Shown piece by piece: positions 5,656-22,519 of a stretch of DNA of 64,000 nt. The first letter of the stretch is position 1. Every line of letters starts with the position of its first letter. The stretch spans positions 5,394,001 to 5,458,000 of the forward strand of contig NZ_JAMZDZ010000001.1 of NCBI RefSeq assembly GCF_024172085.1, in the 5' to 3' direction. The notes below the pieces were generated by a model, which saw only the letters and a list, made by a program, of their open reading frames with translations, did no database searches and was not told the origin of the DNA. The stretch comes from Hamadaea flava (GTDB lineage: Bacteria > Actinomycetota > Actinomycetes > Mycobacteriales > Micromonosporaceae). Position numbers and translations under genes: made by a program.

Positions 5656-6519
5656 TTAGGGGCGGCGGAGGGCGGCGCCGGCCAGCAGGCGGACGGCGTA
5701 CGGGGCGTCGTGCCGCAGGTAGCGTGAGGCGAGCCGCCGGGGTTCCTGGGCGAGCCGGTGCGCCCATTCCAGGCCGCTGCGCTGCATCCAGATCGGGGCG
5801 CGCTGCTGCTCGCCCGCGATGAAGTTGATCGCCGCGCCGCAGCCGAGGAACCAGGTCGACGGCAGGGCGTCGCGCAGGTCGGTGATCACCCGTTCCTGCC
5901 GGGGGAAGCCCAGGCCGACGAAGCAGACGTCCGGGCGTGCCGCGATGACGGCGTCCAGGACGGGGGCGTACTGGTCGGGGTCGGCGTCGAAGCCGAACGG
6001 TGGCGCGGCACAGCCCGCGATGATCAGGCCCGGGCAGGCGCCGGCGAGTTCGGCGGCCGCGCGGTGCGCTCCGTCGGCGCTGCGCCCGGCGACGCCCACG
6101 GCGGACGCCATGAGCAGCCAGTCGTCGCCCTCCTCCGGTTCGATCGCGGACGGCACCGGCGCGCCACCGAGGAGGTAGACCGATCCGGCGATGTCCCCGA
6201 TCGCCTGCGAGACGGTCCAGATCAGGCTGGCGCCCGCGACCCGTTCGGGCAGCGGGTTTCCGGCGAGTTTGCTCGCCCACACCAGCGGCATGCCGTCGGC
6301 CACCACCAGGGTCGCATCGTCGAGGAAGCTGCGGACTTCGGCCGCGATGGGCCGGTCGCTGTCGGCGAGCCGCAGGATGTCCACGTTCGGGGTGACGATC
6401 CGGCCGCCTTCGCCCCGGCTCAGCGCCTCGACGACATGTGCGGCGACCTCTTCCTCGGTGATCGCGTCGAATTCCCGGCCGGCCAGTCTCACGCGCTCAT
6501 TTCCCACGAAATTGGACAA
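5656..6519 (-). CDS. WecG/TagA/CpsF-family glycosyltransferase (GT26)
   Basis: 287 residues. Transfers a sugar (ManNAc-type in characterised members) from a UDP-sugar to a lipid-linked intermediate at the cytoplasmic membrane. Family landmarks are TPNVDILR (43-50), the catalytic-region DGMPLVW (75-81), the central VCFVGLGFPRQE block (about 195-210) and the GCGAAINFIAGE...AP-W element near 225. It stands at the edge of the polysaccharide locus, divergent from a sulfotransferase, with a 77-bp shared promoter region. It is followed immediately by a strong palindrome. The exact sugar cannot be read from sequence. Confidence 0.9.
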   Translation of the reverse strand: MSNFVGNERVRLAGREFDAITEEEVAAHVVEALSRGEGGRIVTPNVDILRLADSDRPIAAEVRSFLDDATLVVADGMPLVWASKLAGNPLPERVAGASLIWTVSQAIGDIAGSVYLLGGAPVPSAIEPEEGDDWLLMASAVGVAGRSADGAHRAAAELAGACPGLIIAGCAAPPFGFDADPDQYAPVLDAVIAARPDVCFVGLGFPRQERVITDLRDALPSTWFLGCGAAINFIAGEQQRAPIWMQRSGLEWAHRLAQEPRRLASRYLRHDAPYAVRLLAGAALRRP

Positions 6520-6596
6520 TAGCGGGTCAATCCCCGTGGATCAGTCGTTAACCGCAGTGACACACGAACCGACAAAACCGTGCAGGGGGTGCGCCG

Positions 6597-7538
6597 ATGG
6601 CGCGGGTGATTTTCCTCGGCGGGCTGGGACGCAGCGGCACGACGCTGATCGAGCGCGTCCTCGGCGAGGTGCCGGGCATCTGCGCGGTCGGCGAGCTGGT
6701 CCATCTCTGGCAGCGCGACCTGCGTGACGACGAGAAATGCGCCTGCGGCAGCCACTTCTGGGGCTGCGACTTCTGGGAACGCGTCGGCATCGCGGCGTTC
6801 GGAGGCTGGCACCGGGTCGACGTGCATCGCGTACTCGCGCTGCGCGAGCTGGTCGAACGCACGCGCCACATCCCGCGCCTCGCGACTCGCGTGCCCGCCG
6901 GCTATGCCGATTTGGTACGCGAGTACGCCGACTACTACGTCCGCATCTACGAGGCAGCGGCCGCCGTCAGCGGAGCCGAGGTGATCGTGGATTCGTCGAA
7001 GCATTCCGCGCTCGCGCATGTGCTCCGCTATGCCACGCGGGTGGAACCAGCCCTCGATCTGCGGGTGCTGCATGTCGTGCGGGACGCGCGTGGGGTGGCG
7101 TACTCGTGGACGAAGAACGTGCTGCGGCCCGAGGCGGCCGCCGACGAGATGACCCGATACTCCCCGGCCCGCTCGGCTCTGCTGTGGACGGCGCACAACG
7201 CCGCGTTCTCGCTGCTCCGCCGCCGAGGCGTACGCGTACGCACCTTGCGCTACGAGGAGTTCCTCGCCGATCCGGAGGCCACCCTGCGACGGCTGGTCAC
7301 GTTCGCCGGGCTCGACCCGTCGGCGGTGGACCTCGGCTGGCTGGAACGGGACCAGGTGACGCTGAGCGTGTCGCACAGCGCCGCGGGGAACCCGATGCGG
7401 TTCACCACCGGACTTGTTCCGCTGCAACGCGACGACGCCTGGCGTACGCACCTCGCGCCGAGACAGCGGGCCGTCGTGAACGCCGTCTGCGCGCCGATGC
7501 TGAAGGCGTACGGGTACGAGCTGGGGGTCAAGCGATGA
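6597..7538 (+). CDS. Sulfotransferase (PAPS-dependent)
   Basis: 313 residues. The N-terminus carries the 5'-phosphosulfate loop, GGLGRSGTTLIERVL (residues 8-22). VIVDSSKHSA (about 130-140) and the 3'-phosphate-binding LHVVRDARGVAYSW (about 158-170) complete the PAPS site. C-terminal YEEFLADPEATLRRL is typical of the Sulfotransfer_1/3 fold. No signal peptide or membrane span, so it acts in the cytosol on a small or lipid-linked sugar acceptor. Its stop overlaps the GT2 start in ATGA, so the two are translationally coupled. With the APS kinase at 20981 it points to a sulfated glycan; the acceptor is unknown. Confidence 0.88.
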   Translation: MARVIFLGGLGRSGTTLIERVLGEVPGICAVGELVHLWQRDLRDDEKCACGSHFWGCDFWERVGIAAFGGWHRVDVHRVLALRELVERTRHIPRLATRVPAGYADLVREYADYYVRIYEAAAAVSGAEVIVDSSKHSALAHVLRYATRVEPALDLRVLHVVRDARGVAYSWTKNVLRPEAAADEMTRYSPARSALLWTAHNAAFSLLRRRGVRVRTLRYEEFLADPEATLRRLVTFAGLDPSAVDLGWLERDQVTLSVSHSAAGNPMRFTTGLVPLQRDDAWRTHLAPRQRAVVNAVCAPMLKAYGYELGVKR

Positions 7539-8455
7539 CGACCTGGCCCTCGGTGGACGTGGTGGTGCCGACCAGGGATCGGCCCGAACTGCTCACCCGT
7601 ACGCTCAACGGCATTCTCGAGCAGGACTACGAAGGCCCGGTACGCATCCTCGTCGTCTACGACCAGGCCGAGCCCGACCCGTCCCGGGAATCCGCCGAGG
7701 ACCGTCCGGTGACCGTGCTCTGCAATTCGCGTATTCCTGGATTGGCGGGAGCCCGGAACACCGGAATCCTGGCCTGTACCGCGGAGCTGGTTGCCTTTTG
7801 TGACGACGATGACGTGTGGGTGCCGAACAAGCTGCGGGACCAGGTGACGGCCCTGCGCCAGCACGCGGAGGCCGAGATGGTGACCTGCGCGATCGAGGTG
7901 CGGTACGCGGAGCGGCGCAGCATCCGACTGGCCGGGCGCGACCTGGTGACCGTCGACGACCTGGCGCGGTCGCGGATGGCGATGCTGCACTCCTCCGGCT
8001 TCCTGTTCCGGCGCGCGGCGCTCGTCGATCCCACCGGGCTGGGCCTGGTCGCGGAGGACGCGCCGGGCAGCCAGAACGAAGACTGGGACCTGCTGCTGCG
8101 GGCGGCGCGACGGCACCCGATCCTCCATGTCGACGAGCCACTCGTCCGGGTGCTCTGGGGCCGGAGTTCGTTCTACGCCTACGAGTACGCCACCAAGATC
8201 TCGTCGCTGCGCTGGATGATGGCCCGGCACCCCGAGATCAAAGGCTGCCCACCGGGCGCCGCCCGGGTCTACGGCCAGCTCGCCTGCTGGTCGGCGGCGG
8301 CGGGAAACCGGACCGACGCCTGGAAATGGACTCGGGAAACCGTACGCGCCAACTGGCGGGAACCGCGCGCCGCGATCGCGTTGGCGGCCCTTACCGGTGC
8401 CGTCCGCATCGAACGGGTCCTGAGCGCCCTCCACAAACACGGCCACGGCATCTGA
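7535..8455 (+). CDS. Glycosyltransferase family 2
   Basis: 306 residues with a GT-A fold: VDVVVPTRDRPELLTRTL at the N-terminus, SRIPGLAGARNTGI (65-78), the metal/nucleotide-binding CDDDDVW (89-95) and the acceptor-side GSQNEDWDLLLRA (about 179-191), the usual ED motif of inverting GT2 enzymes. There is no membrane anchor. It overlaps the upstream sulfotransferase by 4 nt, suggesting that one enzyme adds and the other sulfates a residue of the same polymer repeat. A 27-bp-arm palindrome starts 9 bp after the stop and should end this two-gene operon. Confidence 0.9.
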   Translation: MTTWPSVDVVVPTRDRPELLTRTLNGILEQDYEGPVRILVVYDQAEPDPSRESAEDRPVTVLCNSRIPGLAGARNTGILACTAELVAFCDDDDVWVPNKLRDQVTALRQHAEAEMVTCAIEVRYAERRSIRLAGRDLVTVDDLARSRMAMLHSSGFLFRRAALVDPTGLGLVAEDAPGSQNEDWDLLLRAARRHPILHVDEPLVRVLWGRSSFYAYEYATKISSLRWMMARHPEIKGCPPGAARVYGQLACWSAAAGNRTDAWKWTRETVRANWREPRAAIALAALTGAVRIERVLSALHKHGHGI

Positions 8456-8463
8456 TTTTTTGG

Positions 8464-8526
8464 CTGCAGATCACGGTTGTGCATGCTTCCGGAGCCGTTG
8501 GAAGCATGCACAACCGTGATCTGCAG
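8464..8526. repeat. Perfect 27-bp-arm palindrome, GATCACGG family (copy 2)
   Basis: Left arm 8464-8490 (CTGCAGATCACGGTTGTGCA onward) is matched exactly by 8500-8526, with a 9-nt loop. It starts 9 bp after the GT2 stop and lies upstream of the DUF559 gene. Probable terminator and member of the dispersed family. Confidence 0.9.
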
Positions 8527-8595
8527 CTATCGGGGCTGGTCGGGGTTATCCACAGGGGGTGGTGGGGGAGGGCACGGCGGTGGCACCTTCGCGGG

Positions 8596-9504
8596 GTGCC
8601 TAGACGACCCACGATTCCGCCGGCGCTGCGCGGAGTGACGTTTCGCGGCAGCGCAGCGATGCGGGACGGCCTGCTGACGCGGGGTCAGCTCGCGAGTTCG
8701 GCCTGGCGACGGCTGTTCCGTGACGTCTACGTCCAGCGCTCGGTCGAGATCGACCATCGTGGACTCTGCGTCGCCGCTGTCGAGCACGTCCTGCCGTCTG
8801 CGGTCGTCACGGGTGCGTCGGCGGCCTATCTGCACGGCGTACGCCTGGTGGGGCCGGACGATCCCGTCGAACTGCTGACGCCGGCCCCGCACGGTCCCGT
8901 GCACGGCATCCGGCTGCATCACGGCCCACTCGATCCGGGAGATCTGGTCGAGGTCGACGGTCTTCGGGTGGCGAGCCCGACGCGTACGGTGTGGGACCTG
9001 GTTTGCCATCGCGACCTCGCGGACGCCGCGCGGTTCGTCGATCCGTTGTTGCGCCTCGGCCGGCTGACCGGCGACGACCTGGCCAAGTACGCGTGGGAGC
9101 ACCGGGGCGAGCCGGGCTACCGGTTGATGGAGCAGATGGCAGAGCTAGCCGACGCCGGCTCGGAGTCACCCCAGGAATCGCGTACGTGCGTCGAACTCGT
9201 GCTCGCCGGAGTCCCGAAGCCGCGGACGCAGTACGTGATCCGGGACGGCGGACGGTTCGTGGCGCGGTCCGATCTGGCCTGGCCGGAATACCTGGTCGCG
9301 CTGGAGTACGACGGGTACGACTTTCATCATGACCGGTCGGATCTGTCACGTGACCGGGCGCGGCTCAACCGGCAGCTCATCGCCGGATGGCTGGTCATCC
9401 ACGTCACCGGCGATCGGCTGCGACGAGATCTGCCGGGCGTGGTGGCGGAGGTGCTGGCCGCCCTCCGCTCCCGAGGCTGGCCCGGACCTCCTCGGCTGCC
9501 CTGA
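8596..9504 (+). CDS. AbiEi-like winged-helix plus DUF559 endonuclease-fold protein
   Basis: 302 residues from a GTG. The N-terminal half (MRDGLLTRGQLASSAWRRLF... YLHGVRL) resembles the AbiEi-type antitoxin winged helix with its helical extension. The C-terminal ~90 residues show the Vsr/PD-(D/E)XK-like DUF559 pattern: ARSDLAWPE, LVALEYDGYDFH and a final GWLVIHVTGD. Such two-part proteins are common as single genes in actinobacteria, but their role is not established; regulatory or DNA-processing functions have been proposed. The start is uncertain: the GTG at 8596 has only a weak upstream purine tract, and an in-frame ATG lies at 8659. It stands alone inside the polysaccharide locus, bracketed by palindromes. 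Confidence 0.72.
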   Translation: MPRRPTIPPALRGVTFRGSAAMRDGLLTRGQLASSAWRRLFRDVYVQRSVEIDHRGLCVAAVEHVLPSAVVTGASAAYLHGVRLVGPDDPVELLTPAPHGPVHGIRLHHGPLDPGDLVEVDGLRVASPTRTVWDLVCHRDLADAARFVDPLLRLGRLTGDDLAKYAWEHRGEPGYRLMEQMAELADAGSESPQESRTCVELVLAGVPKPRTQYVIRDGGRFVARSDLAWPEYLVALEYDGYDFHHDRSDLSRDRARLNRQLIAGWLVIHVTGDRLRRDLPGVVAEVLAALRSRGWPGPPRLP

Positions 9505-9573: not shown

Positions 9574-9634
9574 TGCGGATCACGGTTGCGCATGCCTCCG
9601 GGGCCGTTGGAAGCATGCACAACCGTGATCCGCA
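9574..9634. repeat. Palindrome, GATCACGG family (copy 3), between convergent genes
   Basis: Left arm 9574-9599 (TGCGGATCACGGTTGCGCAT onward) pairs with 9609-9634 with two mismatches that would be G-U pairs in one transcript. It is placed exactly between the 3' ends of the convergent DUF559 and GH26 genes, as expected for a bidirectional terminator. Confidence 0.88.
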
Positions 9635-9651: not shown

Positions 9652-10611
9652 TCAGGGGAAGGCGGAGCGGAAGGTGGCGAACGCCGTCGCGTCGCCGGCC
9701 AGCCGGAACTGTCCTTTCTCCCCGTTGCCGTCCGGATCAGACTCGAAGTACGCCACTGCTTTGATCTGCGGCCAGCCCCGGACGAAGTCGCCGGCTTCCC
9801 GGATCCACCGCGTACGCACGGTGGGGCCCCACGTGCGGGCGACGCCGAACTCTCCGACGACGATGGGCTTGGGGTGCTGCGCCGCCCAGGTGAGGAACGG
9901 CGTGAGCAGGTCTTTCAGCGACGCGAACTTGCTCCCGGCGTACGCGTCGACGCAGACCCAGTCGACCGTGTCGTCGCCGGGGTAGTACGCGGCGGCTCGC
10001 CCGGCCGCGAAGCCTTCGGCGGTGGGGCACCACACCCAGGCGACGTTGCGTACGCCTTCTTCGGCGAACACGGCCCGGATGTGCCGCCACGCCGCGATGT
10101 AGTCTGCCGCGCTCCACATCGTGGCGGCCAGGTTCGGCCGGTCCATCTCCCAGCGGACGCGCAGCAGGACCGGGTCGCCGAAGCGGCGCAACTCCGCGGC
10201 CCGCGTACGCAGCTCCCGGTCGGTGTGGCCGAGGGTGATCGAGCGGGTGTCACCGGTGGCCCAGCTGAGCATGAGCGTGCTGCCCTTGCGGCCCAGCTGG
10301 CGGTCGCTGTAGGTGTCGAACGGCTCGTCGATCCGCCGGTACGTGTTGACGATCCGGAGGCGGCGGCCGAGCGACTCCTCGTATTGGCGTACCGCGGCGA
10401 TCCGGCCGGCCTGGGTGAGCTGGGCCGGCCGGACCCACGCGCCGAGCCAGGCGCCGGTGGCGGGCGGAGTCACCGCGCCACCGGCGAACGGCCCGGGATG
10501 GGGCGCGACTTTGTCCAAGGCTGAGGGGGTCGGCGCCGGCTCGTCAGGCGGCGGTGAGCACGCCGTCAGAGCCAGCAGTCCGACCGCCACCACGGCGACG
10601 AAGCGCCTCAC
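9652..10611 (-). CDS. Lipoprotein glycoside hydrolase, GH26 (beta-mannanase)-like
   Basis: 319 residues from the GTG at 10611, which overlaps the methyltransferase stop in GTGA. A signal peptide, VRRFVAVVAVGLLALTAC, ends in a lipobox with Cys18, so the enzyme is tethered outside the membrane. The catalytic region has GH26 landmarks: LLRVRWEMDRPN (acid/base Glu near 157), WRHIRAVFAEEGVRNVAWVW, PGDDTVDWVCVDAY, and KPIVVGEFGV (nucleophile Glu near 255). As the last gene of the polysaccharide operon it probably trims, releases or edits the polymer at the cell surface. The substrate of mannan type is a family inference only. Confidence 0.82.
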   Translation of the reverse strand: MRRFVAVVAVGLLALTACSPPPDEPAPTPSALDKVAPHPGPFAGGAVTPPATGAWLGAWVRPAQLTQAGRIAAVRQYEESLGRRLRIVNTYRRIDEPFDTYSDRQLGRKGSTLMLSWATGDTRSITLGHTDRELRTRAAELRRFGDPVLLRVRWEMDRPNLAATMWSAADYIAAWRHIRAVFAEEGVRNVAWVWCPTAEGFAAGRAAAYYPGDDTVDWVCVDAYAGSKFASLKDLLTPFLTWAAQHPKPIVVGEFGVARTWGPTVRTRWIREAGDFVRGWPQIKAVAYFESDPDGNGEKGQFRLAGDATAFATFRSAFP

Positions 10612-11669
10612 CAGCTCTCCGCGTCCGGGTCGCGCCGCGGCCGCTCGGACTCCTCGGCCGGCTCCGCTGCCGGCTCCACCGGGTGCGAGGACTCGGGCGA
10701 GACCGCGTGGGAAGGCTCGGGCGAGACCGCGTGGGAAGGCTCGGGCGAGACCGCGTGGGAGGACTCGGGCGAGCCCATCTGAGAGGGCTCGGGCGAGACC
10801 GCGTGGGAAGACTCGGGCGAGACCGCGTCTGACGACTCGGGCGAGACCAAGTGGGAGGACCCAGGCGAGCGCGGCTGCTCGGACGCGGACGGCGCGAGAT
10901 CGCCGCTGGCCAGACTGCCCAAGGTCGGACGGGTACGCCGGGCGATGTAGAGGACGTTGACGGAGTACCGGCCGGCGAGGCCGACCCGGGTGGCCAGGTC
11001 GTCCACGAACTGGGCGATCGGGCGCAGCCAGCGGCGGCCGTACCAGCCCTGTGTGAACAGGGCGAAGCCGCGCTGCTCGACGATGGTGAAGCCGTGCCGG
11101 TCGAGGATCGTGGCCACGTCGTCGTGCGACAGCTCGGAGAACCAGGGCTTCGCACCGTGCCGGCGGTGCCGCAGGTGCCGCAGCGAGTGGGCGTTGCCGT
11201 GGTTCTCCACGACGAGGAGCCCGGCGTCGTAGTGCGGCAGGACCTGGGCCGCGAAGGCGATCGCCCGGTCGCGTACCACCTCGTCGACGTTGAGAAGCAG
11301 GCGGAACACCGTGACAAGGGCGGGAGCATCGGTCGGGACCGGGATCGGCACCGGGCCGGTCTCGTCGATCTGATGCATGACCGCGTACGCGCCGACCTCG
11401 TGCGCCTTGGTCAGCATGGCGGCGCTGGTGTCGTAGCCGTGCGCACCGCGCACCAGACCGTGCAGGATGCGGATGGCCCGGCCGGTGCCACAGGCGAAGT
11501 CGTGCTGAACCGGTCGCCGGTAGGGGAACGCCCGCCGGGCGAGGCCGCGCAGATACTCGCGCTGCCGCCGGTTGATCGCCGACCAGTAGCTGTCCGGGGC
11601 GTACACGATGTGCTCGTACTTCTCCACCGCCGCGGAGTCCTGGAAGATCTGGGTGTAATCGGTGCGCAT
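10608..11669 (-). CDS. Class I SAM-dependent methyltransferase with repetitive C-terminal tail
   Basis: 353 residues. The Rossmann core has the SAM-binding HDFACGTGRAIRIL (about 56-69), an acidic residue after GYDTSAAML, FRLLLNVDEV in the motif-IV region, and the strand-6/7 tail VLYIARR near 250. Residues ~265-350 are a low-complexity array of SPESSHAV-type octapeptides rich in Ser, Glu and His, then an acidic-basic end. The core alone would be a complete enzyme; the tail may bind surfaces or simply be expanded sequence. It lies between the flippase and the GH26 lipoprotein in a coupled operon, so it may O-methylate the glycan. The acceptor is unknown. Confidence 0.82.
   Translation of the reverse strand: MRTDYTQIFQDSAAVEKYEHIVYAPDSYWSAINRRQREYLRGLARRAFPYRRPVQHDFACGTGRAIRILHGLVRGAHGYDTSAAMLTKAHEVGAYAVMHQIDETGPVPIPVPTDAPALVTVFRLLLNVDEVVRDRAIAFAAQVLPHYDAGLLVVENHGNAHSLRHLRHRRHGAKPWFSELSHDDVATILDRHGFTIVEQRGFALFTQGWYGRRWLRPIAQFVDDLATRVGLAGRYSVNVLYIARRTRPTLGSLASGDLAPSASEQPRSPGSSHLVSPESSDAVSPESSHAVSPEPSQMGSPESSHAVSPEPSHAVSPEPSHAVSPESSHPVEPAAEPAEESERPRRDPDAESW
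10690..10869. repeat. 24-bp in-frame tandem repeats in the methyltransferase gene
   Basis: Seven full units and one partial begin every 24 bp from 10690, approximately GACTCGGGCGAGACCGCGTG plus four bases. They encode octapeptides such as SPESSHAV and SPEPSHAV. Units are nearly identical at DNA level, so copy number probably varies between strains. Confidence 0.92.
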
Positions 11670-11687
11670 GGTTCTCCTCGAGTGTTG

Positions 11688-13238
11688 TCAGACCCGCCGG
11701 CTCAATGGGGTCATAGGCAGGCGGCGGCGCAGCAGCACCACCCCCAGCAGGTACGCGACCGCCCCGGCTCCGATGGCCAGCCAAGGCGGGGACGCGTGCA
11801 GCGCGACCGGCACCGCGCCGAAGCTGACGGAGGTCAGCAGCACGGCGGCGAGGGTGTCGCCGCCGAAGGGGTGCAGCCGCATCGTGACCACGATCTGGGC
11901 GAGGGGCAGCAGGTTGTTCACGGCGACCGCGCAGGCCAGCCCGAGAGCGGCGCCGACGATCCCGAGCGCCGGGATGAGGAGAAGATCCACAGCGACCATC
12001 GCGATCAGGGCCGCGAGAACGTTGACGAGGTTCCAGACGGTTCGGCCGCCCATGGCGAGCACCATGTCGACCATCCCGCAGCCGGTGGCCAGCAGCATCA
12101 CCAACGCCAGTACGCGTACCACCGGGGCGGCCTGCCGGTAGTGCGTGCCGAACAGGCCGAGGTAGTCCCCGGCGTACTGGAGGATCGTCAGGTGCAGCGG
12201 CCAGGAGGTGAGGATGAGCCAGCCGGTCGCGGTCTGATACAGCCGCCGCGCGGTGGGCAGGTCGCCGACCGCGAGTGCCTCGGCCAACCGGGGCTGCACC
12301 GCCTGCGAGATGGCGCCGTTGGCGAGCTGGCCGACGACGACGAACCGCCCCGCGACGGAGTACGCCGCCGCGGCGGCCAGCCCGGCGAGCGCGGCGACCA
12401 GCAGCACGTCGATGCGTTGCAGGGCGGTCTGGGCGACGTTGGCGAGAGCGCGGGGCGCGGTGAACCGCCAGAACCGCCACCCCATCCCGTCCGCTGCGGG
12501 TTTCCTGCGGATCAGGGATATCCAGGCGATCACGGCCGCTTTTGACATGCGTATCCGTGATCTGCTGCCCAATGGATTGGCCAGGCGCCAGAGGAGGTAG
12601 CCGGCGGCGACGCAGACCGGCAGGTACGGCCCGGCCCACGCGACGGCCCAGACGGCCACCGGTGCGCCGACGAGGAAGACCAGGCCCAGCAGGACCAGTT
12701 GCAACGCCGGCCGGGTGATCTTCTCCAGCAGCACGGTCGGGCGCATCTGCCGGTAGCCGCGGGTCGCGGCCAGCAATGCGTCGGCGAGCGCGGCGAGCGG
12801 CAGGAAGAACGCGAGCGCCCGCAGCGGTCCGGCGTACTCCGGGGTCAGCACGGGGGCCAGCCAGAAGGTGACCCCCGTGAGCACCAGTCCCGCGAGGAAC
12901 ACCGGTGGCAGGGCGACCCGCAGGCACGCCCCGATCAGCTCCGGTGTGGACAGTGCGCGCAGCCGGGCCGGCCAGTACACCAGCCCGGTCACCGTCCCCA
13001 GCCGGGCCACCCCACCCACCAGCGTGAACGCGGCCGTGGCCGCGAAGAACGAACCCGCCTGCTCGGCCCCCAGTCCGCGCGCGACCAGCCAGGTCACGCC
13101 GAGGCCCGCGACCCCGGCCAGGCCCGCGCCCAGCAGGTTCGCGACGCCGCCGCGCGCGGTCGAGGTCAGCGCGTCCCGGTGCGAACCAGCTCCGCGTTGC
13201 GAGGGCGCCTGGGTGCGAGTCGGGTTCTCCGTGGTCAT
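11688..13238 (-). CDS. Polysaccharide flippase (Wzx/MATE-like, MOP superfamily)
   Basis: 516 residues with about 12-14 predicted membrane helices. The first is LLGAGLAGVAGLGVTWLVARG, and the later half contains the typical ALANVAQTALQRIDVLLVAAL and GMVDMVLAMGGRTVWNLVNV stretches. It would move a lipid-linked, probably sulfated, repeat unit across the membrane for assembly by the ligase/polymerase encoded upstream. Its ATG overlaps the preceding sulfotransferase stop in ATGA. Residues ~226-243, in a loop between helices 6 and 7, are encoded by an in-frame palindromic element with unusual codons (AGA, TCA, ATA, AAA). The reading frame stays open through it. Confidence 0.87.
   Translation of the reverse strand: MTTENPTRTQAPSQRGAGSHRDALTSTARGGVANLLGAGLAGVAGLGVTWLVARGLGAEQAGSFFAATAAFTLVGGVARLGTVTGLVYWPARLRALSTPELIGACLRVALPPVFLAGLVLTGVTFWLAPVLTPEYAGPLRALAFFLPLAALADALLAATRGYRQMRPTVLLEKITRPALQLVLLGLVFLVGAPVAVWAVAWAGPYLPVCVAAGYLLWRLANPLGSRSRIRMSKAAVIAWISLIRRKPAADGMGWRFWRFTAPRALANVAQTALQRIDVLLVAALAGLAAAAAYSVAGRFVVVGQLANGAISQAVQPRLAEALAVGDLPTARRLYQTATGWLILTSWPLHLTILQYAGDYLGLFGTHYRQAAPVVRVLALVMLLATGCGMVDMVLAMGGRTVWNLVNVLAALIAMVAVDLLLIPALGIVGAALGLACAVAVNNLLPLAQIVVTMRLHPFGGDTLAAVLLTSVSFGAVPVALHASPPWLAIGAGAVAYLLGVVLLRRRLPMTPLSRRV
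12509..12563. repeat. Palindromic element inserted in frame inside the flippase gene
   Basis: Ends GGATCAGGGATA (12509-12520) and TATCCGTGATCT (12552-12563) are inverted copies with 2 of 12 mismatches. Read on the minus strand, the right part AGATCACGGATACGCATG matches the arm of the intergenic copy at 32258 at 17 of 18 bases. The left part resembles the GATCAGGGAT group at 16708 and 47655. It therefore looks like a hybrid member of the intergenic family that now encodes about 18 amino acids of the flippase. Confidence 0.85.
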
Positions 13239-15354: not shown

Positions 15355-16667
15355 GCGTCACCCCGATCAGAGTTCGTTTTCGGGAGGGTTGCGCGCCAGA
15401 GCAGCGCGTAGGCCAGGAAGGTGAAGGCCAGCGGGGTGACCAGCGAGTTGTACCAGAACATCGCGACGAAGGTCCCCACGATCGCGGCCTGGCCCGCGAT
15501 CCCGATCGGCGTGCGGTCGCGGCGGAACCGCCACAGCCCGTAGCCGAAGAAGCCCAGGTATCCGACGGCACCGACGGCGCCATGAGCGAACAGCAGCTGC
15601 CACAGCTGCCCGTTGCCGCCGACGGTGAAGTTGCCGCAGCGTTCGCAGGCAGCACTCTCGCCGACCGTGATCGACTGCCGGCCGCCGAGCGTGTTGCGCG
15701 TCGACCCGAACCCGACCAGCGGGGACTGCCGGAACCCGTCCAGCGCCCGCTCAGTCAGATACATGCGTACGCCGTTGGACTTGCCGTTCTCCAGGCGTTT
15801 GGTGACGACGTCGCCCAGCGGCGTCACCGCCAGCACCCCGGCCAGCGCGGCGGCGGCGCCCGCCCCGGCCAGCAGCATGCCCGACCGGCCCGCCTGCGCC
15901 TGGCGTACCGCCACGTAGGCGAGCGTGACCCCGAGCCCGATCCACAGGCCCCGATTGAGCGAGTGGACGACCGGCACGGCCGCGACCACCAGCAGGGCGA
16001 GCGCCGCGGTCTTGACCCGCCGCGGGGCTGCCGTGCGGACCGCGACGGCGAACCAGACGACGAGCAGGCAGAAGTTGTTGCCCCAGGTGTTCGTGTAACC
16101 CCACGGCGCGGCCGGGCGGGGCTGGGGGTCGCCGACGAGGTCCATGATCTGCGCGGCGTAGGGGTGGACCAGCGACTTGATGAAGCCCTTGCCGCGCACA
16201 CCCGGTGGGAGCAGCAGCTCGACCGGCGAGGTGAAGCTGAAGTGCCCGGCGAAGGTGCCGAGCAGTCCACCCGCGACGGTGACCACGAACAGCCAGGCCA
16301 GCAGTTTGACCAGGCGCGTCTGGGAGAGCGCGCCGGTCGGCAGGTTACCGGCGTAGATCAATAGGACGGTCAGCGAGACGTACTCGACCAGACGGAAGGC
16401 GACGCCGCTGACCCGCTCGGCCGCGCCCGCCTGGACCACGCCGTCCGGGTCGGCCCCGAGCACGGCCACGCCGACGATCACCGCGCCCAGGAAGAGCAGC
16501 CAGAAGGGAAAACCGGGCGGCAGCTTGACCGCCTCGCCGCGCCGGTGCTTCCGGACGAGTTGGACGACCATCGGGACGGCGAGGATCGGGAAGATCAGAA
16601 CGCCGAGCCCGAGCGCCCACCACAGCGGATACAGGGCCAGCAGCGCCACCAACGGCCACGCGGACAT
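15351..16667 (-). CDS. O-antigen ligase / Wzy-like polymerase
   Basis: About 438 residues starting at ATG 16667 (MSAWPLVALLALYPLWW). There are 10-12 hydrophobic spans and a long extracytoplasmic loop around 215-310 that holds LEYTNTWGNN-type polar sequence and the family's HSLNRGLWIGLG motif. GFGSTRNTLGG near 315 fits the Wzy_C/O-antigen ligase domain. It would polymerise or attach translocated repeat units on the outer membrane face. It is the first gene of the coupled block reading to the GH26 lipoprotein. Longer upstream reading in the same frame crosses the palindrome at 16708 and is not coding. Confidence 0.86.
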   Translation of the reverse strand: MSAWPLVALLALYPLWWALGLGVLIFPILAVPMVVQLVRKHRRGEAVKLPPGFPFWLLFLGAVIVGVAVLGADPDGVVQAGAAERVSGVAFRLVEYVSLTVLLIYAGNLPTGALSQTRLVKLLAWLFVVTVAGGLLGTFAGHFSFTSPVELLLPPGVRGKGFIKSLVHPYAAQIMDLVGDPQPRPAAPWGYTNTWGNNFCLLVVWFAVAVRTAAPRRVKTAALALLVVAAVPVVHSLNRGLWIGLGVTLAYVAVRQAQAGRSGMLLAGAGAAAALAGVLAVTPLGDVVTKRLENGKSNGVRMYLTERALDGFRQSPLVGFGSTRNTLGGRQSITVGESAACERCGNFTVGGNGQLWQLLFAHGAVGAVGYLGFFGYGLWRFRRDRTPIGIAGQAAIVGTFVAMFWYNSLVTPLAFTFLAYALLWRATLPKTNSDRGDA

Positions 16668-16707: not shown

Positions 16708-16762
16708 GGATCAGGGTTCTCGGTCGAATCTTGACCCAAGATTCGACCTGGATCCCTGATCC
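16708..16762. repeat. Palindrome, GATCAGGG group (copy 1), inside the polysaccharide operon
   Basis: Left arm 16708-16733 (GGATCAGGGTTCTCGGTCGA onward) pairs with 16737-16762, three mismatches and a 3-nt loop; the centre reads AATCTTGACCCAAGATT. It lies between the Wzz-like gene and the ligase on the same strand, so it could attenuate transcription into the ligase or separate two units. Similar centres occur at 47655 and 50005. Confidence 0.88.
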
Positions 16763-16789
16763 AGTGCCCACGATCCGGGGCGACGACAC

Positions 16790-18499
16790 TCACGCGGCGC
16801 CCTGCCCGGCGGCGGCGTCCAGCTCCGCCAGCTTCGTCTCGTCGATGCGCTCGAAGTGCTGGGTGTCCTCGACGAGAGCTGCGGACGGCGTCGGCCGGGG
16901 GGCCGGGGCGACCGCCGGCACCGAAGTGGGCACCTTGAGCCGGGGTACGACCACCGCTCCGAGCAGCACCGTCCCGACCCGCCGCAGCTGTTCGGCGGCG
17001 TCGAGGACCTGCGGGTAGCGCGTACGCCGGAGTTCGATCGCGACGATGGCCGCGTCGGCCACGCCGGCCAGGCTCTGCGCGTCCGCACTGGCCTCGGCCG
17101 ACGGGGCCTCGATGATCAGGTAATCGCACTGCGTACGCAGGTGGGCGACGATGTCCCGCAGTGCCTGCGACTGCAACAGCCCGGCCGCGCTGGCGGTCGC
17201 GCCGGTGGCGAGCACCCGCAGATGAGGCGTACGCGGAGCGCGCTGCAACGCGGTGGACAGCGCGACCCGGCCGCAGATGACGTCGGACAACCCCGGGGTC
17301 GGCTGCACCCCGACCAGGCCGGCCAGTGGCGCGACGCCGACGAGCAGGTCCGGCAGGTGCGCGCCGACGAGCACGACTTCGCTGCCCGTACGCGCGAGCG
17401 CGGTCGCGAGGTTGGCCGCGACGAGGGTGGCCGACGGTCCCCGGCTGGCCCCGGTCACCACGACCGCCCGGCCGAGCGCGGTTTCGGCAGCCGGCTGCGT
17501 TCCGGACGGCTCGCGTAGGCGCTCACCGGCGGGGACGACGGCCGAGATCGCCGCGACGACCTCGTTCCGCAGCCGGTTGAAGATCCGGCCGCCGCTGCCG
17601 TACGGGGGGAAGACGTCGTCCAGCCGCGGCTTGGCGCGCCCGGTCACCTCGGCGAGCACCGGCACGTCGGCGCGACGCCAGACGTCACCCGCCCGGCGTA
17701 CGCGCCGGTCGAGGCGATGCCGCAGGGCCGCGGCCAGCAACCCGAGCAACGCGCCGAGCACGGCGCCACCGGCCAGATTGATCTTCAGATCCGGCTTGCG
17801 CGGCCGGTTGGGCAGACCGGCGTCGCTGATGATCCGGCCCGCGCTCACCGCCGTCGTCGACAGCCCGTTGAGCTTGCCGTTCAGCTGGTTGATCTGGGCC
17901 TGGAGGGTGGCTCGCTGGCTGTCCAGGGTGGGCCGGTTCGGGGCGTCGCCGGACTGCTTGCCCAGCTTGACGATCACCTGGCCGAGCTGCGTCGACAGCT
18001 GCTTGAGCTTGGCGTTGAGCGCCTTGATCTGGCTGTCCAGGTCGTAGTGCGCGTTCGCGTCCCGGCTGCGCAGGTACGCCTCCGCGAACGCGTGCGAACC
18101 GGCCTGGGCCAGCTCCGGCGTACGCGCGGCGTACTTGATCTGCAGGACGGTGGTGTTCGGCGGAACCTCCACCGACACGCTGCGGGAGAGGTTCCGCGGG
18201 TCGACGTGCGTACGCAGCAGCTCGGCGGCGGTCGTGGCGACCTGGGTCGAGCGCACCAACTGCGCCTCGGTGTCGAGGTTGATCTCGCCCTTGGTCCGGC
18301 CACCGGCCGCGTTCGCGTCCCCACCCGACGGCTGGACCAGCACCGACGTGCTCGACACGTACTCGCGCGGCAGCGTACGGGTGACGGCGGCGGCGCCCGC
18401 CACCCCGACGGCGGTCAGGAGCAGGACGACCCACCAGTGCCGACGGACCAGCCCGAGGTAGTCGGAGAGGTCCATCGACCCGGGATGAGCGGCGTCCAT
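16790..18499 (-). CDS. Wzz/chain-length protein with degenerate BY-kinase domain
   Basis: About 569 residues from ATG 18499, which has GAAAGG at good spacing. Two membrane spans (about 20-40, HWWVVLLLTAVGVAGAAAV; about 235-252) bracket a periplasmic coiled-coil (SQIKALNAKLKQLSTQLGQV) as in Wzz/CapA proteins. The C-terminal part has the BY-kinase layout, but the Walker A position reads VTGASRGPSATLVAANLA, lacking the lysine and GK(S/T), and the later DYLIIEAPS replaces the usual Walker B aspartates. It is therefore probably a pseudokinase that controls chain length or recruits partners rather than phosphorylating tyrosine. No Tyr-rich tail. It is the first gene of the minus-strand polysaccharide operon. 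Confidence 0.85.
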   Translation of the reverse strand: MDAAHPGSMDLSDYLGLVRRHWWVVLLLTAVGVAGAAAVTRTLPREYVSSTSVLVQPSGGDANAAGGRTKGEINLDTEAQLVRSTQVATTAAELLRTHVDPRNLSRSVSVEVPPNTTVLQIKYAARTPELAQAGSHAFAEAYLRSRDANAHYDLDSQIKALNAKLKQLSTQLGQVIVKLGKQSGDAPNRPTLDSQRATLQAQINQLNGKLNGLSTTAVSAGRIISDAGLPNRPRKPDLKINLAGGAVLGALLGLLAAALRHRLDRRVRRAGDVWRRADVPVLAEVTGRAKPRLDDVFPPYGSGGRIFNRLRNEVVAAISAVVPAGERLREPSGTQPAAETALGRAVVVTGASRGPSATLVAANLATALARTGSEVVLVGAHLPDLLVGVAPLAGLVGVQPTPGLSDVICGRVALSTALQRAPRTPHLRVLATGATASAAGLLQSQALRDIVAHLRTQCDYLIIEAPSAEASADAQSLAGVADAAIVAIELRRTRYPQVLDAAEQLRRVGTVLLGAVVVPRLKVPTSVPAVAPAPRPTPSAALVEDTQHFERIDETKLAELDAAAGQGAA

Positions 18500-18756
18500 G
18501 GGCGGCCTTTCGCGTACGGGGTCGACGGGGTCGGGGAGAAGGAGGAGAGGCCCCTGAGAGGTAAACGGCACGGGCGGGCTGACGTAACTCCGGAAAACAG
18601 GCTGTATGTCCGGATTTGCTGGGCGTGTCGCTGCACGATTTCCGCGATGGGTCCACTTTTCTGGACGTTTACCCCTTTAAGCCACCACAGGTCGCGAATA
18701 GGATCAATAGCAGCAATCAGTGCGTTTCTCTCGACTGGCGGAGGGGAGGCACCGCG
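18500..18756. promoter_or_regulatory. Divergent control region, wzz-like / GH26-DNRLRE
   Basis: 257 bp between divergent starts and clearly AT-richer than its surroundings (about 18590-18725). GAATAGGAT near 18700 could be a -10 element for the plus-strand gene, whose ribosome site GGAGG is at 18745-18749. No clear operator palindrome was seen. It probably coordinates polymer export with the secreted glycosidase. Confidence 0.5.
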
Positions 18757-21000
18757 ATGGTCAGGTCCGGCCATGGCAGGCGGTCCGCGCGGGTGGCGCT
18801 GCTCGCCGCCGCCGCGGTGACAGCGGCGACGACGATCGGGCTGCTCGGCGGCCGGGTTTCGGACCGGCCCCGGATCGTGCCGGTCGCGGAGGACGTCGCG
18901 GTCCGGGACTTCGCGCCCGCCTCGCTCGACACCCCCGAATCGCCCGCACCGACCGCTGCGCCTGCCGAGAGCGTGGACCTCCTGGCGGCCGGCGGCTGGG
19001 CCGGCGGCGCAGCGGTCAGCTACCTCAAGTTCCGCGTCGACCTGCCGGCCGGCGCCCCGCCCGCGCACGCCGAACTCTGGCTCGCCCGGCACAGCGGCCG
19101 CCTGCCCGGAATCGTCGAACTCAGCGTCGTCCCGTGGGCGGACTGGCGGGCCGGCCAGGTCACTGCGGGGTCCGCGCCCCGGCTCGGCCAGGTGGTCGGC
19201 TCCGTGTTCCCCACGGGATTCGAGACTGCGGTCCACTTCGACGTCACGAGCGTCCTCCGCGACTCCGGCGAGTACGCGTTCGCGGTGACCGCGCCGACAA
19301 GCGACGCGATCGGCCTGTTCGACGCCCAGGAGAGCCGGGCTAAACGGCCGCCGACGCTGACCCTGCAATGGAACACGGGACCCCGTCCGTCGGCGAGCCC
19401 GCTCAACCGGCTGCCCGGCTCGATGATCGTCGCGCCGCCGAGCACCGCCCTGCGCTACCTGCAGCTCCCGGGCTGGCTGCCGGAGGAGGCCGCGCCCTAC
19501 TGGGCTCCGTCCACCGACGACGGTGCGTACGCCACCGCGAGTGCGACCGAAGAGCCGTCGCCGCCCCCGCCGCCCTTGCCGACCCCGGGCGACCCGGTGG
19601 CTACTCCAGCGCCGTCTCCCTCGGATTCGGCCGCACCTTCGTCGGAACCGACGCCGTCGGGGATGCCGTCGCCGTCTGTCCTGCCGTCGCCGACGGACTC
19701 GCCCGCGCCCTTGCCGTCCAACTCTCCGTCAGCGTCGGATCGGCCCAGCCCGTCGGGCTTGGCTAGCGTGTCGGTGTCGCCGAGCGCATCGGTGGCACCC
19801 AGTCCGTCGCGGTCGCCGAGTGCGTCGGTCTCACCGAATGCGTCGGGGTCCCCGGGCGCGCCGGTCTCACCGTCGGTCTCACCGAGCGCTTCGGGCTTGC
19901 CGAGCGCGTCCGCGTCGCCGAGCGCGTCCGCTTCGCAGGGGCCGTCGCCGAGCCCGAGCAGCAGCGGGCCGTCCGAACCCGACTGCCGCCTCGGCGACCG
20001 GGGCGTACCCGAGTGCGGGGTGCTCTGGGGCGTCGCGCCGGGGGCGCACACCTCGGTCAACCGGGCCAGCGCGTTGCGTACCTTCGAGAATCTGACCCAA
20101 CGGCCGCAGGCGGTCTATCACGCGTACCACCGTGGAGACCAGATGTTCCCCACCGCCGAGGAGATCGGCGTGGCCCGGGATCCGCGCAGCCCGCGGATGC
20201 TCATGCTGAACTGGAAGCCGCTGAATGCCACCTGGCGGGAGATCGCGAACGGCGACCCCTGGTCCGACGACTATCTGGACCGGCTCGCCGCGCACATCAA
20301 GGCGACCTTTCCCGAGCAGTTCTTCTTCACGATGCACCACGAACCCGAGGACGACGTACGCGCGAATCCGCTGCTCGGGATGACCGCGCGGGACTACGCC
20401 GCCGCGTTCCGGTACGTGGTGCAGCGGCTGCGGGCCGACGGCGTCACGAACCTGATCTCGGTGGTCTGCTTCATGGCGTACATCCCGTGGAACACCAAGT
20501 CGTGGTTCCCCGATCTCTACCCGGGTGACGACGTCGTCGACTGGGTCGCCTGGGACGCGTACGCCTACAGCGATCCCGGTTACGGCTACGGCGACTTCGC
20601 CGAGATGATGAACCGGCGGTCGAGCGGCCATCCGGACTGGCCCGGCTTCTACACCTGGGCCGCGAAGCGGTTCCCGAAGAAGCCGCTGATGGTCGCCGAA
20701 TGGGGGCTCTGGTACTCCGCGTTCAACCGTGGTCACCAGGCCGACTTCTTCCGCAGCGTCGGGCGGCAGATCGACCTGTTCCCCCGGGTCAAGGCGCTGA
20801 TCTACTTCGAGACGCCGAGCAACCAGGCCGGCCGGGACTCCCGGGTGCATGCCACCGCCGACGGGCTGGCCGCGTACCGGGATCTGGGGAAGCTGCCGGT
20901 GTTCCGGGTCGAGCCGCCGCCAGAAGTGCGGTCGGCGGACCAGCGGCCCAAGGCGCCGAGCCCACCCAGCCCGACCGCGGTCAAGCCTCCGGGAGGCTGA
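18757..21000 (+). CDS. Secreted GH26-like glycoside hydrolase with DNRLRE domain and Pro/Ser linker
   Basis: 747 residues. ATG 18757 follows GGAGG by 7 bases and starts an Arg-rich signal peptide (SGHGRRSARVALLAAAAVTAATTIGLL). Residues ~70-215 resemble a DNRLRE carbohydrate-binding domain (YLKFRVDLP.AHAELWL). Residues ~265-405 are a Pro/Ser/Ala-rich linker with SPSASVSP-type repeats. The C-terminal ~330 residues are a GH26-like barrel: FFTMHHEPED (acid/base Glu), YPGDDVVDWVAWDAYAY and KKPLMVAEWGL (nucleophile Glu). It is divergent from the Wzz-like gene. The last 20 bp overlap the end of the convergent APS kinase gene. Probably degrades or remodels the exported polymer; the substrate is not proven. 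Confidence 0.83.
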   Translation: MVRSGHGRRSARVALLAAAAVTAATTIGLLGGRVSDRPRIVPVAEDVAVRDFAPASLDTPESPAPTAAPAESVDLLAAGGWAGGAAVSYLKFRVDLPAGAPPAHAELWLARHSGRLPGIVELSVVPWADWRAGQVTAGSAPRLGQVVGSVFPTGFETAVHFDVTSVLRDSGEYAFAVTAPTSDAIGLFDAQESRAKRPPTLTLQWNTGPRPSASPLNRLPGSMIVAPPSTALRYLQLPGWLPEEAAPYWAPSTDDGAYATASATEEPSPPPPPLPTPGDPVATPAPSPSDSAAPSSEPTPSGMPSPSVLPSPTDSPAPLPSNSPSASDRPSPSGLASVSVSPSASVAPSPSRSPSASVSPNASGSPGAPVSPSVSPSASGLPSASASPSASASQGPSPSPSSSGPSEPDCRLGDRGVPECGVLWGVAPGAHTSVNRASALRTFENLTQRPQAVYHAYHRGDQMFPTAEEIGVARDPRSPRMLMLNWKPLNATWREIANGDPWSDDYLDRLAAHIKATFPEQFFFTMHHEPEDDVRANPLLGMTARDYAAAFRYVVQRLRADGVTNLISVVCFMAYIPWNTKSWFPDLYPGDDVVDWVAWDAYAYSDPGYGYGDFAEMMNRRSSGHPDWPGFYTWAAKRFPKKPLMVAEWGLWYSAFNRGHQADFFRSVGRQIDLFPRVKALIYFETPSNQAGRDSRVHATADGLAAYRDLGKLPVFRVEPPPEVRSADQRPKAPSPPSPTAVKPPGG

Positions 21001-22519
21001 TCCAGCTGCCGTTGACGAGGTAGTCGAGGACCTCGTCGACGGCGTCCTCGACCGAACCCTGGCTCGTGTCGATGGTCAGCTCCGCGTCGGTGGGCGCCTC
21101 GTAGGGGTCGTCGATGCCGGTCATCCCGCGGATCAAGCCCGCCCGCGCCTTGGCGTACAGGCCTTTGCGGTCGCGCTTCTCGCAGACTTCCAGCGGCGTG
21201 GCGACGTGGACGAGGATGAAGTCCGCTCCGGCGGTGCGGGCCATCGCACGGGCTACCGCGCGGGCTGCCGCGTACGGCGCGATCGGGCAGGCGATGGCCA
21301 CGCCGCCGTGCCGGGCCACTTCGGCGGCGACGAACCCGATCCGCCGGATGTTCAGGTCCCGGTCCTCTTTGCCGAAGCCCAGGCCCTTGCTCAGCTCCCG
21401 GCGGACGACGTCGCCGTCGAGCATCGTGATGCTGCGTTCGCCCTCCTCCCGCAGCACCTCGGCCACCCCATGTGCCACCGTGGACTTGCCGGAGCCGGAC
21501 AGGCCGGTGAAGAACAGGACGAGACCACGTTGGCGCCGCGGCGGCCGGGCCTTGGCCAGCTCGCGGGCGACGCCCGGCGGCGTGTGCCACTCCGGCAGCG
21601 TCTCGCCGTCGTCGAGCAGTTGCGCGATCTCGTCCGGAGTCAGCGGCAGCCGCGCGAACCGCGGGTTCACGTCGTTGGCGTCGCGCCACTGACCGTCCCG
21701 CGTGTCGTACGCGAGCGCGCGGGGGACCAGTACGCGAGGACCCCGGCCGGCGATGGTCTCGGCAGTGGACAGCAGATGCGTGACCCCGTACGCCTCGGCG
21801 ACCCGAGCCCGCAGCGCGCCGTCGGCGAACTGGTCCTCCCGCCGATGCAGCGGGATCGCCACCACCAACGGGTCCGGCAGGCGCTCGGCCGCAGCGAGTA
21901 CGCAGCGCAGCAGGGCGTGCTGCTCCAACCCGTCCGGCCCCGGCTCGGCCACCGGCACCAGCAGCACGATCTGCGCGCTGAGCTGTCGTGCGGTGTGCAG
22001 CAGCTGGGCCAGTTGGGGCCGGTGCAACGGGCGGTCGGCGTAGAAGCCGAGGACGCGGCTGGCTCCCGCTCGATCCGGCGCCTCGGTCTGGCCGGCGTGG
22101 AGATGATGGCGAGCCTCGGCGGCGGACAGCCGATAGCGGTGGAAGGGCAGCCCGCCGTCGCCGTACGCGCGTACCGCCCCGGAGAGGTAGCTGTGCCCCG
22201 GTTTCCGGGCGGGCCAGCGCTCGGCGATGTGCAACGCGCCGACCGGTGCGCCCTCGGGGTCGGTCAGCACGACCGCCTTCGCCTCGGGGCGTACCGCCAC
22301 GTCCGGGATGAGCAGCGTGATCAGCGGCCACACCCCGTCGTTGGGCAGCCGCCCGTGCTGCTCCACCGCGGCGCAGTCGGCCCGGCTCATGAACCCGTCC
22401 AGCGGTGCGTACGCCCCGGCGAGCAGCATCTGGAGGTCGGCCAGCTCGACCGGTTCGGGCGTGTGGGCGGGCGCGCTGGCCAGATCCTCGTCGGTGAGGG
22501 CCCACTCGAACCGGTCCAC
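20981..22519 (-). CDS. APS kinase fused to a degenerate ATP-sulfurylase-like domain
   Basis: 512 residues from GTG 22519 with GGAGG upstream. The C-terminal ~180 residues are a convincing adenylylsulfate kinase: FFTGLSGSGKSTVAHGV (P-loop near 340), MLDGDVVRREL, FGKEDRDLNIRRIGFVA, DFILVHVATPLEVCEKRDRKGLY. It makes PAPS, the donor for both sulfotransferases. The N-terminal ~330 residues follow the ATP sulfurylase plan (PUA-like part, then a catalytic-like part), but QTRNPxHRxH has become YADRPLHRPQ and GRDHAG has become STAETIAG. Sulfurylase activity is therefore unlikely and APS must come from elsewhere. The gene lies alone on its strand between the GH26 gene and ppc. Confidence 0.87.
   Translation of the reverse strand: MDRFEWALTDEDLASAPAHTPEPVELADLQMLLAGAYAPLDGFMSRADCAAVEQHGRLPNDGVWPLITLLIPDVAVRPEAKAVVLTDPEGAPVGALHIAERWPARKPGHSYLSGAVRAYGDGGLPFHRYRLSAAEARHHLHAGQTEAPDRAGASRVLGFYADRPLHRPQLAQLLHTARQLSAQIVLLVPVAEPGPDGLEQHALLRCVLAAAERLPDPLVVAIPLHRREDQFADGALRARVAEAYGVTHLLSTAETIAGRGPRVLVPRALAYDTRDGQWRDANDVNPRFARLPLTPDEIAQLLDDGETLPEWHTPPGVARELAKARPPRRQRGLVLFFTGLSGSGKSTVAHGVAEVLREEGERSITMLDGDVVRRELSKGLGFGKEDRDLNIRRIGFVAAEVARHGGVAIACPIAPYAAARAVARAMARTAGADFILVHVATPLEVCEKRDRKGLYAKARAGLIRGMTGIDDPYEAPTDAELTIDTSQGSVEDAVDEVLDYLVNGSWISLPEA

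Follow-up and report, generated by a model that had tools for sequence, protein, structure and literature searches.

We analysed a 64,000-nucleotide window of the one-contig genome of Hamadaea flava (C1:5394001-5458000 of 8,864,410 bases), which holds a locus of glycan and sulfotransferase genes together with a gene for adenosine 5'-phosphosulfate (APS) kinase. In our judgement this locus very probably builds an O-sulfated extracellular polysaccharide by the Wzx/Wzy route. By its gene content and order it is the ortholog of wps-1, the cluster described in Actinoplanes missouriensis by Tezuka and Ohnishi (AEM, June 2026; PMC13390465), so that the locus as such had already been described. What we add is a candidate for the first enzyme, the genes of the sulfate-donor supply, including a degenerate sulfurylase half, and a wide host range.

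Gene set of the locus and its published counterpart

The first-pass annotation of this DNA had predicted the export of a sulfated, possibly methylated repeat unit. This prediction is supported, with methylation of the glycan being probable, and it agrees with the independent published reading and with the disruptions of the orthologous wps-1 genes (PMC13390465, as far as its available part goes); however, the wps-1 precedent, a candidate initiating transferase, the degenerate sulfurylase half and the breadth of spread had been missed. The glycan and sulfotransferase genes were confirmed in their places by gene calls guided by third-position GC (at about 70% GC the length of an open reading frame (ORF) alone misleads), by ORF lists, by Pfam and by reading of the sequence (Table 1). 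Both sulfotransferases, named as users of 3'-phosphoadenosine 5'-phosphosulfate (PAPS), have matching Pfam domains and are called ST1 and ST2 below. The methyltransferase and polymerase calls stand, though their Pfam matches fall below the cut-offs. The kinase of aminoglycoside-phosphotransferase (APH) fold has no match in Pfam or NCBIfam, but its predicted model is APH-like. Of the two glycosidases proposed as GH26-like, the relationship holds (27% mutual identity, E 2e-18), with CBM96 as the sole Pfam match of the second, and the gene listed as an APS kinase does encode the kinase, but as part of a 512-aa fusion of PUA, degenerate ATP-sulfurylase and APS-kinase regions. An AbiEi-like gene inside the locus had not been listed.

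Motif patterns were counted over homolog rows, which include repeated records and short ORFs. For ST2 the 5'-phosphosulfate-binding (5'-PSB) pattern was present in 140/140 rows, the 3'-phosphate-binding (3'-PB) pattern in 136/140 and the Glu motif in 129/140. Its profile matched the bacterial sulfotransferase structure 3rnl (1.9e-30) as well as heparan 3-OST-5 and NDST-1. Its ESSPYY motif has a Glu that does not vary across 29 aligned sequences; this residue lines up with the Glu of EKSPAY in 3-OST-5 and of EKSANY in NDST-1, where it is presumably the catalytic base. The closest titled ST2 match, among the matches listed, came from a metagenome-assembled genome of Hamadaea sp. (96% identity). 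The 5'-PSB pattern of ST1 was found in 118 of 121 rows and its second pattern in 119 (111 of the rows are distinct); at E<=0.1 a sequence search of the PDB gives this protein one weak match, the sulfotransferase of a polyketide synthase (4gox, E 6.7e-4). A third sulfotransferase of the genome (L164; L and G numbers are our handles for stretches and genomes) is unlinked and was not tied to the locus. The APH-type protein keeps HGDxxxxN in 134/135 rows and DW[ED] in 121/135, and its model (pLDDT 90.5) is similar, with low TM-scores, to APH(3'), maltokinase and LicA. In the C-terminal region of Wzz the Walker A pattern GK[ST] occurs in 3 of 128 rows and is missing from 125. The two GH26 patterns were seen in 88/90 and 85/90 rows of the first GH26-like protein and in 88/96 and 52/96 rows of the second.

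As far as the available part of the wps-1 paper goes, deletion of each gene but wpsD disturbed sporangia or spore release. Deletion of wpsH (ST2) gave squashed sporangia and poor release of spores, as did deletion of wpsA (GT2) and of the Wzx, Wzy and Wzz genes (wpsG, wpsJ and wpsK); deletion of the neighbouring AMIS_7390, annotated in the sulfate adenylyltransferase/APS kinase family, had an 'unexpectedly' severe phenotype, and macroscopic growth of this mutant and of the wps-1 mutants was as in the wild type. The authors predicted a sulfated polysaccharide, with its verification awaited (PMC13390465). In the available main text we found no mention of glycosylphosphotransferase, CysD, PAPS or 'conserved in', and among the papers listed by our literature searches no other appears to describe this locus.

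The presumed A. missouriensis stretch (L257) shows the order GT2-ST-GT26 / GH26-MT-Wzx-ST-kinase-Wzy-Wzz / APS-kinase fusion (MT, methyltransferase), which is shared by the window, as is the predicted sulfated product; the GT26/ST1-GT2 block is inverted in the window. At the place of WpsD the window has the AbiEi-like gene, and no DUF4262 gene was called there by a procedure that did not search for one. The hosts differ as well: A. missouriensis forms sporangia, whereas Hamadaea is not known to do so.

Few bacteria have been reported to make sulfated polysaccharides, and the suspicion raised by the 2026 authors concerned one actinomycete that forms sporangia. The synechan cluster of Synechocystis likewise concerns a bacterial sulfated exopolysaccharide, and the available text of the paper has sulfotransferase and Wzx terms (PMC8205485); the host, however, is a cyanobacterium, and the likeness drawn here is at the level of description. 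Capsules that bear sulfate are also on record for Cobetia marina KMM 1449 and for Vibrio sp. KMM 8419, both reported with a sulfotransferase term in the text available (PMC11766843, PMC11641403), and they show that bacteria other than cyanobacteria make such polymers too. Those polysaccharides come from other hosts and were isolated, whereas the system in the window is known from genes alone.

Distribution and a candidate initiating enzyme

The first-pass annotation had proposed a neighbourhood search for sulfotransferase plus Wzx/Wzy in relatives, and this search bore the grouping out. All eight core genes (GT26, ST1, GT2, Wzx, ST2, APH, Wzy and Wzz) lie in one stretch in 67 of the 80 best titled records; among the remaining 13 are contigs that are short and loci whose ST1-GT2-GT26 part falls beyond the stretch. 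This synteny, the same gene set in many genera, rejects a chance grouping. Among the 80 records are Catellatospora, Asanoa, Glycomyces, Hamadaea, Streptosporangium and Sphaerisporangium, the first four of which are, to our knowledge, without sporangia. In a survey of 200 genomes of the family (Micromonosporaceae), ST2 homologs at E<=1e-10 were found in 183, and their scores form separate groups; at E<=1e-100, a threshold chosen after seeing the scores, a wps-1-type ST2 is present in 126/200 genomes and in 29/44 genera. A survey of the class gave an ST2 match at E<=1e-70 in 63 of 394 genomes, 60 of them outside the family, in ten families. Twenty stretches from these 60 genomes were examined: all seven of ST1, GT2, Wzx, ST2, APH, Wzy and Wzz are present in 10 and at least six in 16. 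Stretch L255 is truncated at its ST2 end by the coordinates chosen.

Five stretches (L064, L065, L068, L069 and L070) carry a second, paralogous type of sulfotransferase/Wzx/Wzy cluster, and both g4 stretches examined (L064 and L065) are of that type. In L066 and L067, from two g35 genomes, the ST2 homolog adjoins an APS kinase beside galT-deoR with no other core-gene match in the stretch; this pair is perhaps a remnant.

Among the genes called in the locus there is no phosphoglycosyltransferase. PF02397 is matched three times in the genome (4.29, 4.93 and 5.69 Mb). The match at 4.29 Mb, a polyprenyl glycosylphosphotransferase (PGT), scores over the TIGR03025 cut-off and has a one-base overlap with a CysQ-like gene (a call below its NCBIfam cut-off), which is followed by CysD and CysN. 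We fetched 40 stretches around CysQ homologs and scanned them along with the stretches fetched earlier. A PGT directly before CysQ-CysD-CysN was found in 22 sampled carriers, our own genome included, and in the presumed A. missouriensis (PGT at L258:9827-11233); pth flanks the PGT on its other side in 20 of the 22 carriers, the other two being cut by a stretch or contig end. None of 14 sampled non-carriers has a PGT beside CysQ (seven without an ST2 match at E<=1e-10, all >=98% complete, and seven with other ST2 types). The fragmented genome G080, of the window's genus and with no ST2 detected, has the PGT beside CysQ. In G037 and G024 the CysQ homolog stands without CysD in the fetched stretch, and genome-wide both have a high-scoring PGT.

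We then scored the 200 family genomes for an ortholog-level PGT (E<=1e-150, again chosen after seeing the scores) and for the wps-1-type ST2. Both were present in 124 genomes, ST2 only in 2, PGT only in 11 and neither in 63. The Fisher p for co-occurrence, 9e-38, ignores shared ancestry; safer in this respect is the tally by genus majority (both 27, neither 13, PGT only 4, ST2 only 0), along with the split genus g23, in which one genome has PGT and ST2 and three have neither. Among the 63 'neither' genomes, 56 have a weaker PGT (E ~1e-123 to 1e-132) and 7 have none at 1e-120.

In some genomes the two gene groups are neighbours. PGT-CysQ-CysD-CysN lies ~0.25 kb from GT2-ST1-GT26 in L209 (G070) and L059 (G035), and in L239, L240 and L241, outside the family, it runs into ST1-GT2-GT26, behind which follow ST2, APH, Wzy, Wzz, a GH26-like gene, CysC and mfd (Wzx was not matched in L240). 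These three stretches belong to family f19, taken as Streptosporangiaceae; of its ten stretches, CysD-CysN adjoins ST1 in seven, and the PGT is included in three. The second, paralogous cluster in L069 (G071) has its own PGT-CysD-CysN. In a tree of 29 PGT rows (27 different), the cys-operon PGTs are split from the genome's two other PGTs with 100/100 support. From this tree a 400-aa filter left out the partial PGTs of L059, L239 and L241, so L240 is the sole row from outside the family; L209, with its match in two pieces, is long and oddly composed. Those two, at 5.69 and 4.93 Mb, do not group with the cys-operon PGTs and were not tied to the locus. Taken from these gene comparisons, it is a well supported reading that the cys-operon PGT would start the repeat unit.

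Sulfate donor, proposed pathway and alternatives

In the APS-kinase fusion the Pfam ATP-sulfurylase match covers just positions 15-119 of 212. The sequences HxxH and GRDHAG, which we take to be ATP-sulfurylase motifs (1m8p shows HRAH), occur in none of 94 CysC rows (83 distinct), whereas the kinase P-loop is present in all 94. The 22 aligned fusion sequences all read HRPQ in place of HxxH. The H-x-x-Q pattern was found in 81 of the 94 rows; of the other 13, L039 reads HRPQ and 12 show neither form. Most of the N-terminal region is missing from rows L044 and L087, and in the rows from outside the family this region is shorter. The fusion reaches 367 bits with NF004040 (cut-off 669) and passes the cut-off of TIGR00455. 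Its predicted model (pLDDT 87.8) matches the folds of Penicillium chrysogenum ATP sulfurylase and of 3cr8, titled 'Hexameric APS kinase', from Thiobacillus denitrificans. The latter has the same PUA/ATP-sulfurylase-like plus APS-kinase architecture, with 32-33% identity over the fold match, and differs in reading HRAQ where the family of the window has HRPQ.

A separate CysD-CysN is present in the Hamadaea genome. The CysH protein has CC...CxxC, which we take to be the APS-reductase cysteine motif, in 30/30 loci (our own genome and 29 of 30 chosen genomes; none was found in the remaining one, G030). In Corynebacterium glutamicum, according to the available part of the report, CysH reduces APS for cysteine and there is no APS kinase (PMC1266029). 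Because of this CysH type and this precedent, PAPS is probably not needed for cysteine and would be free for sulfation. This would also explain the 'unexpected' phenotype of the AMIS_7390 deletion, as a loss of PAPS.

The pathway that we propose runs as follows. CysD-CysN would make APS and the fusion protein, as APS kinase, would convert it to PAPS; the ATP-sulfurylase half of the fusion would be inactive and is probably structural or regulatory. The TIGR03025-type PGT at 4.29 Mb would load a hexose-1-phosphate on undecaprenyl phosphate, GT26 and GT2 would extend it to a repeat unit of about three sugars, ST2 and ST1 would sulfate this unit with PAPS, and the methyltransferase and the APH-fold kinase may decorate it further. 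The product of sulfation, 3'-phosphoadenosine 5'-phosphate (PAP), would be removed by the CysQ-like phosphatase. Wzx would flip the unit, Wzy polymerise it and Wzz set the length, while the GH26-like proteins may trim the polymer or release it. With Wzx, Wzy and Wzz in the window and a PGT elsewhere, which presumably serves the locus, the genome has the set of a Wzx/Wzy pathway. In Hamadaea it would be the hyphae or the spores, in place of sporangia, that carry the polymer as a coat.

More broadly, we think it fairly probable that this sulfated-glycan system is widespread in Actinomycetes, beyond sporangium-formers and Micromonosporaceae, with a three-part design (PGT-CysQ-CysD-CysN; a pseudo-ATP-sulfurylase APS kinase; a two-sulfotransferase Wzx/Wzy module) and a PAPS supply apart from cysteine synthesis. 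If so, the capacity would be common in the class, sulfation would be a trait of development or of the cell surface with a PAPS branch to itself, and the gene set would be much more complete, having gained the first enzyme and the sulfate-donor branch. The AMIS_7390 deletion phenotype would become a direct prediction of PAPS loss, and the cys-operon PGT provides one named gene on which the model can be tested.

Several observations weigh against the sulfated-polysaccharide pathway as proposed. The pathway is read from gene content and from the comparison of genomes, and sulfate on such a glycan is so far a prediction and no chemical finding. Eleven genomes (one is G080) have the ortholog-level PGT without the wps-1-type ST2, and two have the reverse. 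CysH scores over the cut-offs of NF002537 and TIGR00434, both named phosphoadenylyl-sulfate reductase/cysH, and reaches 215 bits with the APS-reductase model TIGR02055, whose cut-off is 235.3 (TIGR02057 was also below its cut-off). The APS kinase is present in 199/200 family genomes; 73 of the 74 that have no wps-1-type ST2 carry it, and it is therefore not exclusive to this pathway; as a test, its co-occurrence with the locus does not discriminate. Some other ST2 homolog is found in 57 of these 74. In the available part of the wps-1 report, AMIS_7390 is not activated together with wps-1, and the wpsB (ST1) mutant is normal by scanning electron microscopy (SEM) and releases ~ten-fold fewer spores (PMC13390465), so the role of ST1 would be minor or redundant. 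The pattern kept in just 52/96 rows of the second GH26-like protein is that of the nucleophile.

The glycan machinery could be real and the sulfotransferases and APS kinase nonetheless serve a small metabolite or lipid, having been placed there by accident. PAPS sulfotransferases of the ST1 and ST2 Pfam families also act on small molecules, the sole PDB match of ST1 is the polyketide-synthase enzyme, and the genome has the third, unlinked sulfotransferase. Yet 67 of the 80 titled records keep ST1 and ST2 together with Wzx, Wzy and Wzz, 16 of the 20 outside-family stretches retain at least six of the seven core genes, ST2 resembles glycan sulfotransferases, and loss of wpsH squashes sporangia just as loss of Wzx, Wzy or Wzz does (PMC13390465, available part), so that we regard this explanation as very unlikely. 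A sulfate-bearing secondary polymer anchored to the wall (teichoic- or teichuronic-like), in place of a free exopolysaccharide or matrix, seems to us unlikely as well. One of the GT26 enzymes is TagA, which acts in the synthesis of wall teichoic acid; this speaks for such a polymer, and the TarA model does match, below its cut-off. However, Wzx, Wzy and Wzz are an exopolysaccharide/capsule set, neither a LytR-CpsA-Psr (LCP) ligase nor an ABC exporter was noticed among the scanned locus genes (the genome was not searched for them), and the published mutants grow as the wild type with the sporangium affected (PMC13390465, available part).

The fused CysC might also be active both as ATP sulfurylase and as APS kinase and serve cysteine synthesis, with sulfur starvation behind the sporangium phenotype, as the published discussion implies. 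The domain names and the published annotation of AMIS_7390 (PMC13390465, available part) suggest this, as do the near-universal presence of the gene in the family, the PAPS-reductase names of the CysH models passed and a model fold that still resembles ATP sulfurylases. Against it stand the absence of HxxH and GRDHAG from every CysC row, the separate CysD-CysN, the CysH type in all loci examined, the C. glutamicum route to cysteine and the unchanged macroscopic growth of the AMIS_7390 mutant (PMC1266029 and PMC13390465, available parts). We consider this bifunctional role most improbable, and a PAPS supply for O-sulfation of an extracellular polysaccharide remains our preferred reading.

Layout of the locus and other features of the window

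Table 1. Genes of the predicted sulfated-polysaccharide locus (positions in the window) with the evidence for each call.
Feature	Position	Strand	Evidence
GT26 (WecG/TagA-type) glycosyltransferase, WpsC ortholog	5656..6519	-	PF03808 8.3e-50; TIGR00696 over cut-off
ST1, PAPS-dependent sulfotransferase, WpsB ortholog	6597..7538	+	PF13469 2.7e-14; 5'-PSB pattern
GT2 glycosyltransferase, WpsA ortholog	7535..8455	+	PF00535 1.8e-20
AbiEi-like gene within locus	8659..9504		PADLOC AbiEi 4.3e-13
GH26-like lipoprotein, WpsE ortholog	9652..10611	-	PF02156 2.9e-5 (9652-10593); GTG start at 10611 by reading
SAM methyltransferase, repetitive C-terminal tail, WpsF ortholog	10608..11669	-	PF13489 9e-5, under curated cut-off
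Wzx-type flippase, WpsG ortholog	11688..13238	-	PF01554 (MatE) 3.8e-7
ST2, heparan-sulfate-type sulfotransferase, WpsH ortholog	13235..14107	-	PF00685 3e-10; 3rnl, 3-OST-5, NDST-1 profile matches
APH-fold kinase, WpsI ortholog	14104..15354	-	motif patterns; predicted model APH-like
Wzy-type polymerase, WpsJ ortholog	15351..16667	-	PF04932 (Wzy_C) 8.6e-7, under curated cut-off; sequence reading
Wzz-type chain-length protein, BY-kinase-like C-terminal region, WpsK ortholog	16790..18571	-	PF02706 8.6e-10; TIGR01005 under cut-off
Secreted CBM96 + GH26-like protein	18757..21000	+	PF24517 7.4e-6 (18751-21000); 27% identity to first GH26-like protein
APS kinase with N-terminal PUA/pseudo-ATP-sulfurylase region, 512 aa, AMIS_7390 ortholog	20981..22519	-	PF01583 2.6e-57; PF14306 9e-14; partial PF01747

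The genes for Wzz, Wzy, APH, ST2, Wzx, the methyltransferase and the GH26-like lipoprotein are all read leftward. The tight coupling described for the genes from 9652 to 16667 is exact, with 4-nt overlaps at 10608-10611, 13235-13238, 14104-14107 and 15351-15354 and an 18-nt gap at 11670-11687. ST1 and GT2 form a rightward pair with a 4-nt overlap, divergent from GT26. Beyond the APS-kinase fusion gene lie ppc and mfd. The AbiEi-like gene, matched in 2/80 of the best titled records, is probably a variable insertion in the glycan locus.

The gap that separates the stop codon of Wzz from the ATG of Wzy holds a very strong hairpin at 16690-16780 (-54.1 kcal/mol, z -5.7), which could act as an attenuator within the operon; an alternative GTG start of Wzy near 16793 would give an overlap with Wzz. 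No sigma-70-type promoter was found, the 2 terminator-like sites are below the shuffled-sequence counts, and a single tRNA is the sole Rfam match. The C-terminal tail of the methyltransferase (10608-10900) consists of degenerate SPESSHAV-type repeats, and for the presumed A. missouriensis ortholog the gene call gave 244 aa.

A palindromic repeat of ~60 nt is dispersed at gene ends (5579-5639, 8463-8527 and 9574-9634). With at most two mismatches its half-site has 131 matches genome-wide, as compared to 0 for the reversed control, and judged by this pattern it is a repetitive extragenic palindromic (REP)-like element of the Hamadaea genome. Far from the locus, at 57974-59907, a low-GC AAA ATPase gene and its small partner match PADLOC HEC-01A (4.5e-100) and HEC-01B (1.2e-11), which makes this region a candidate phage-defence island.

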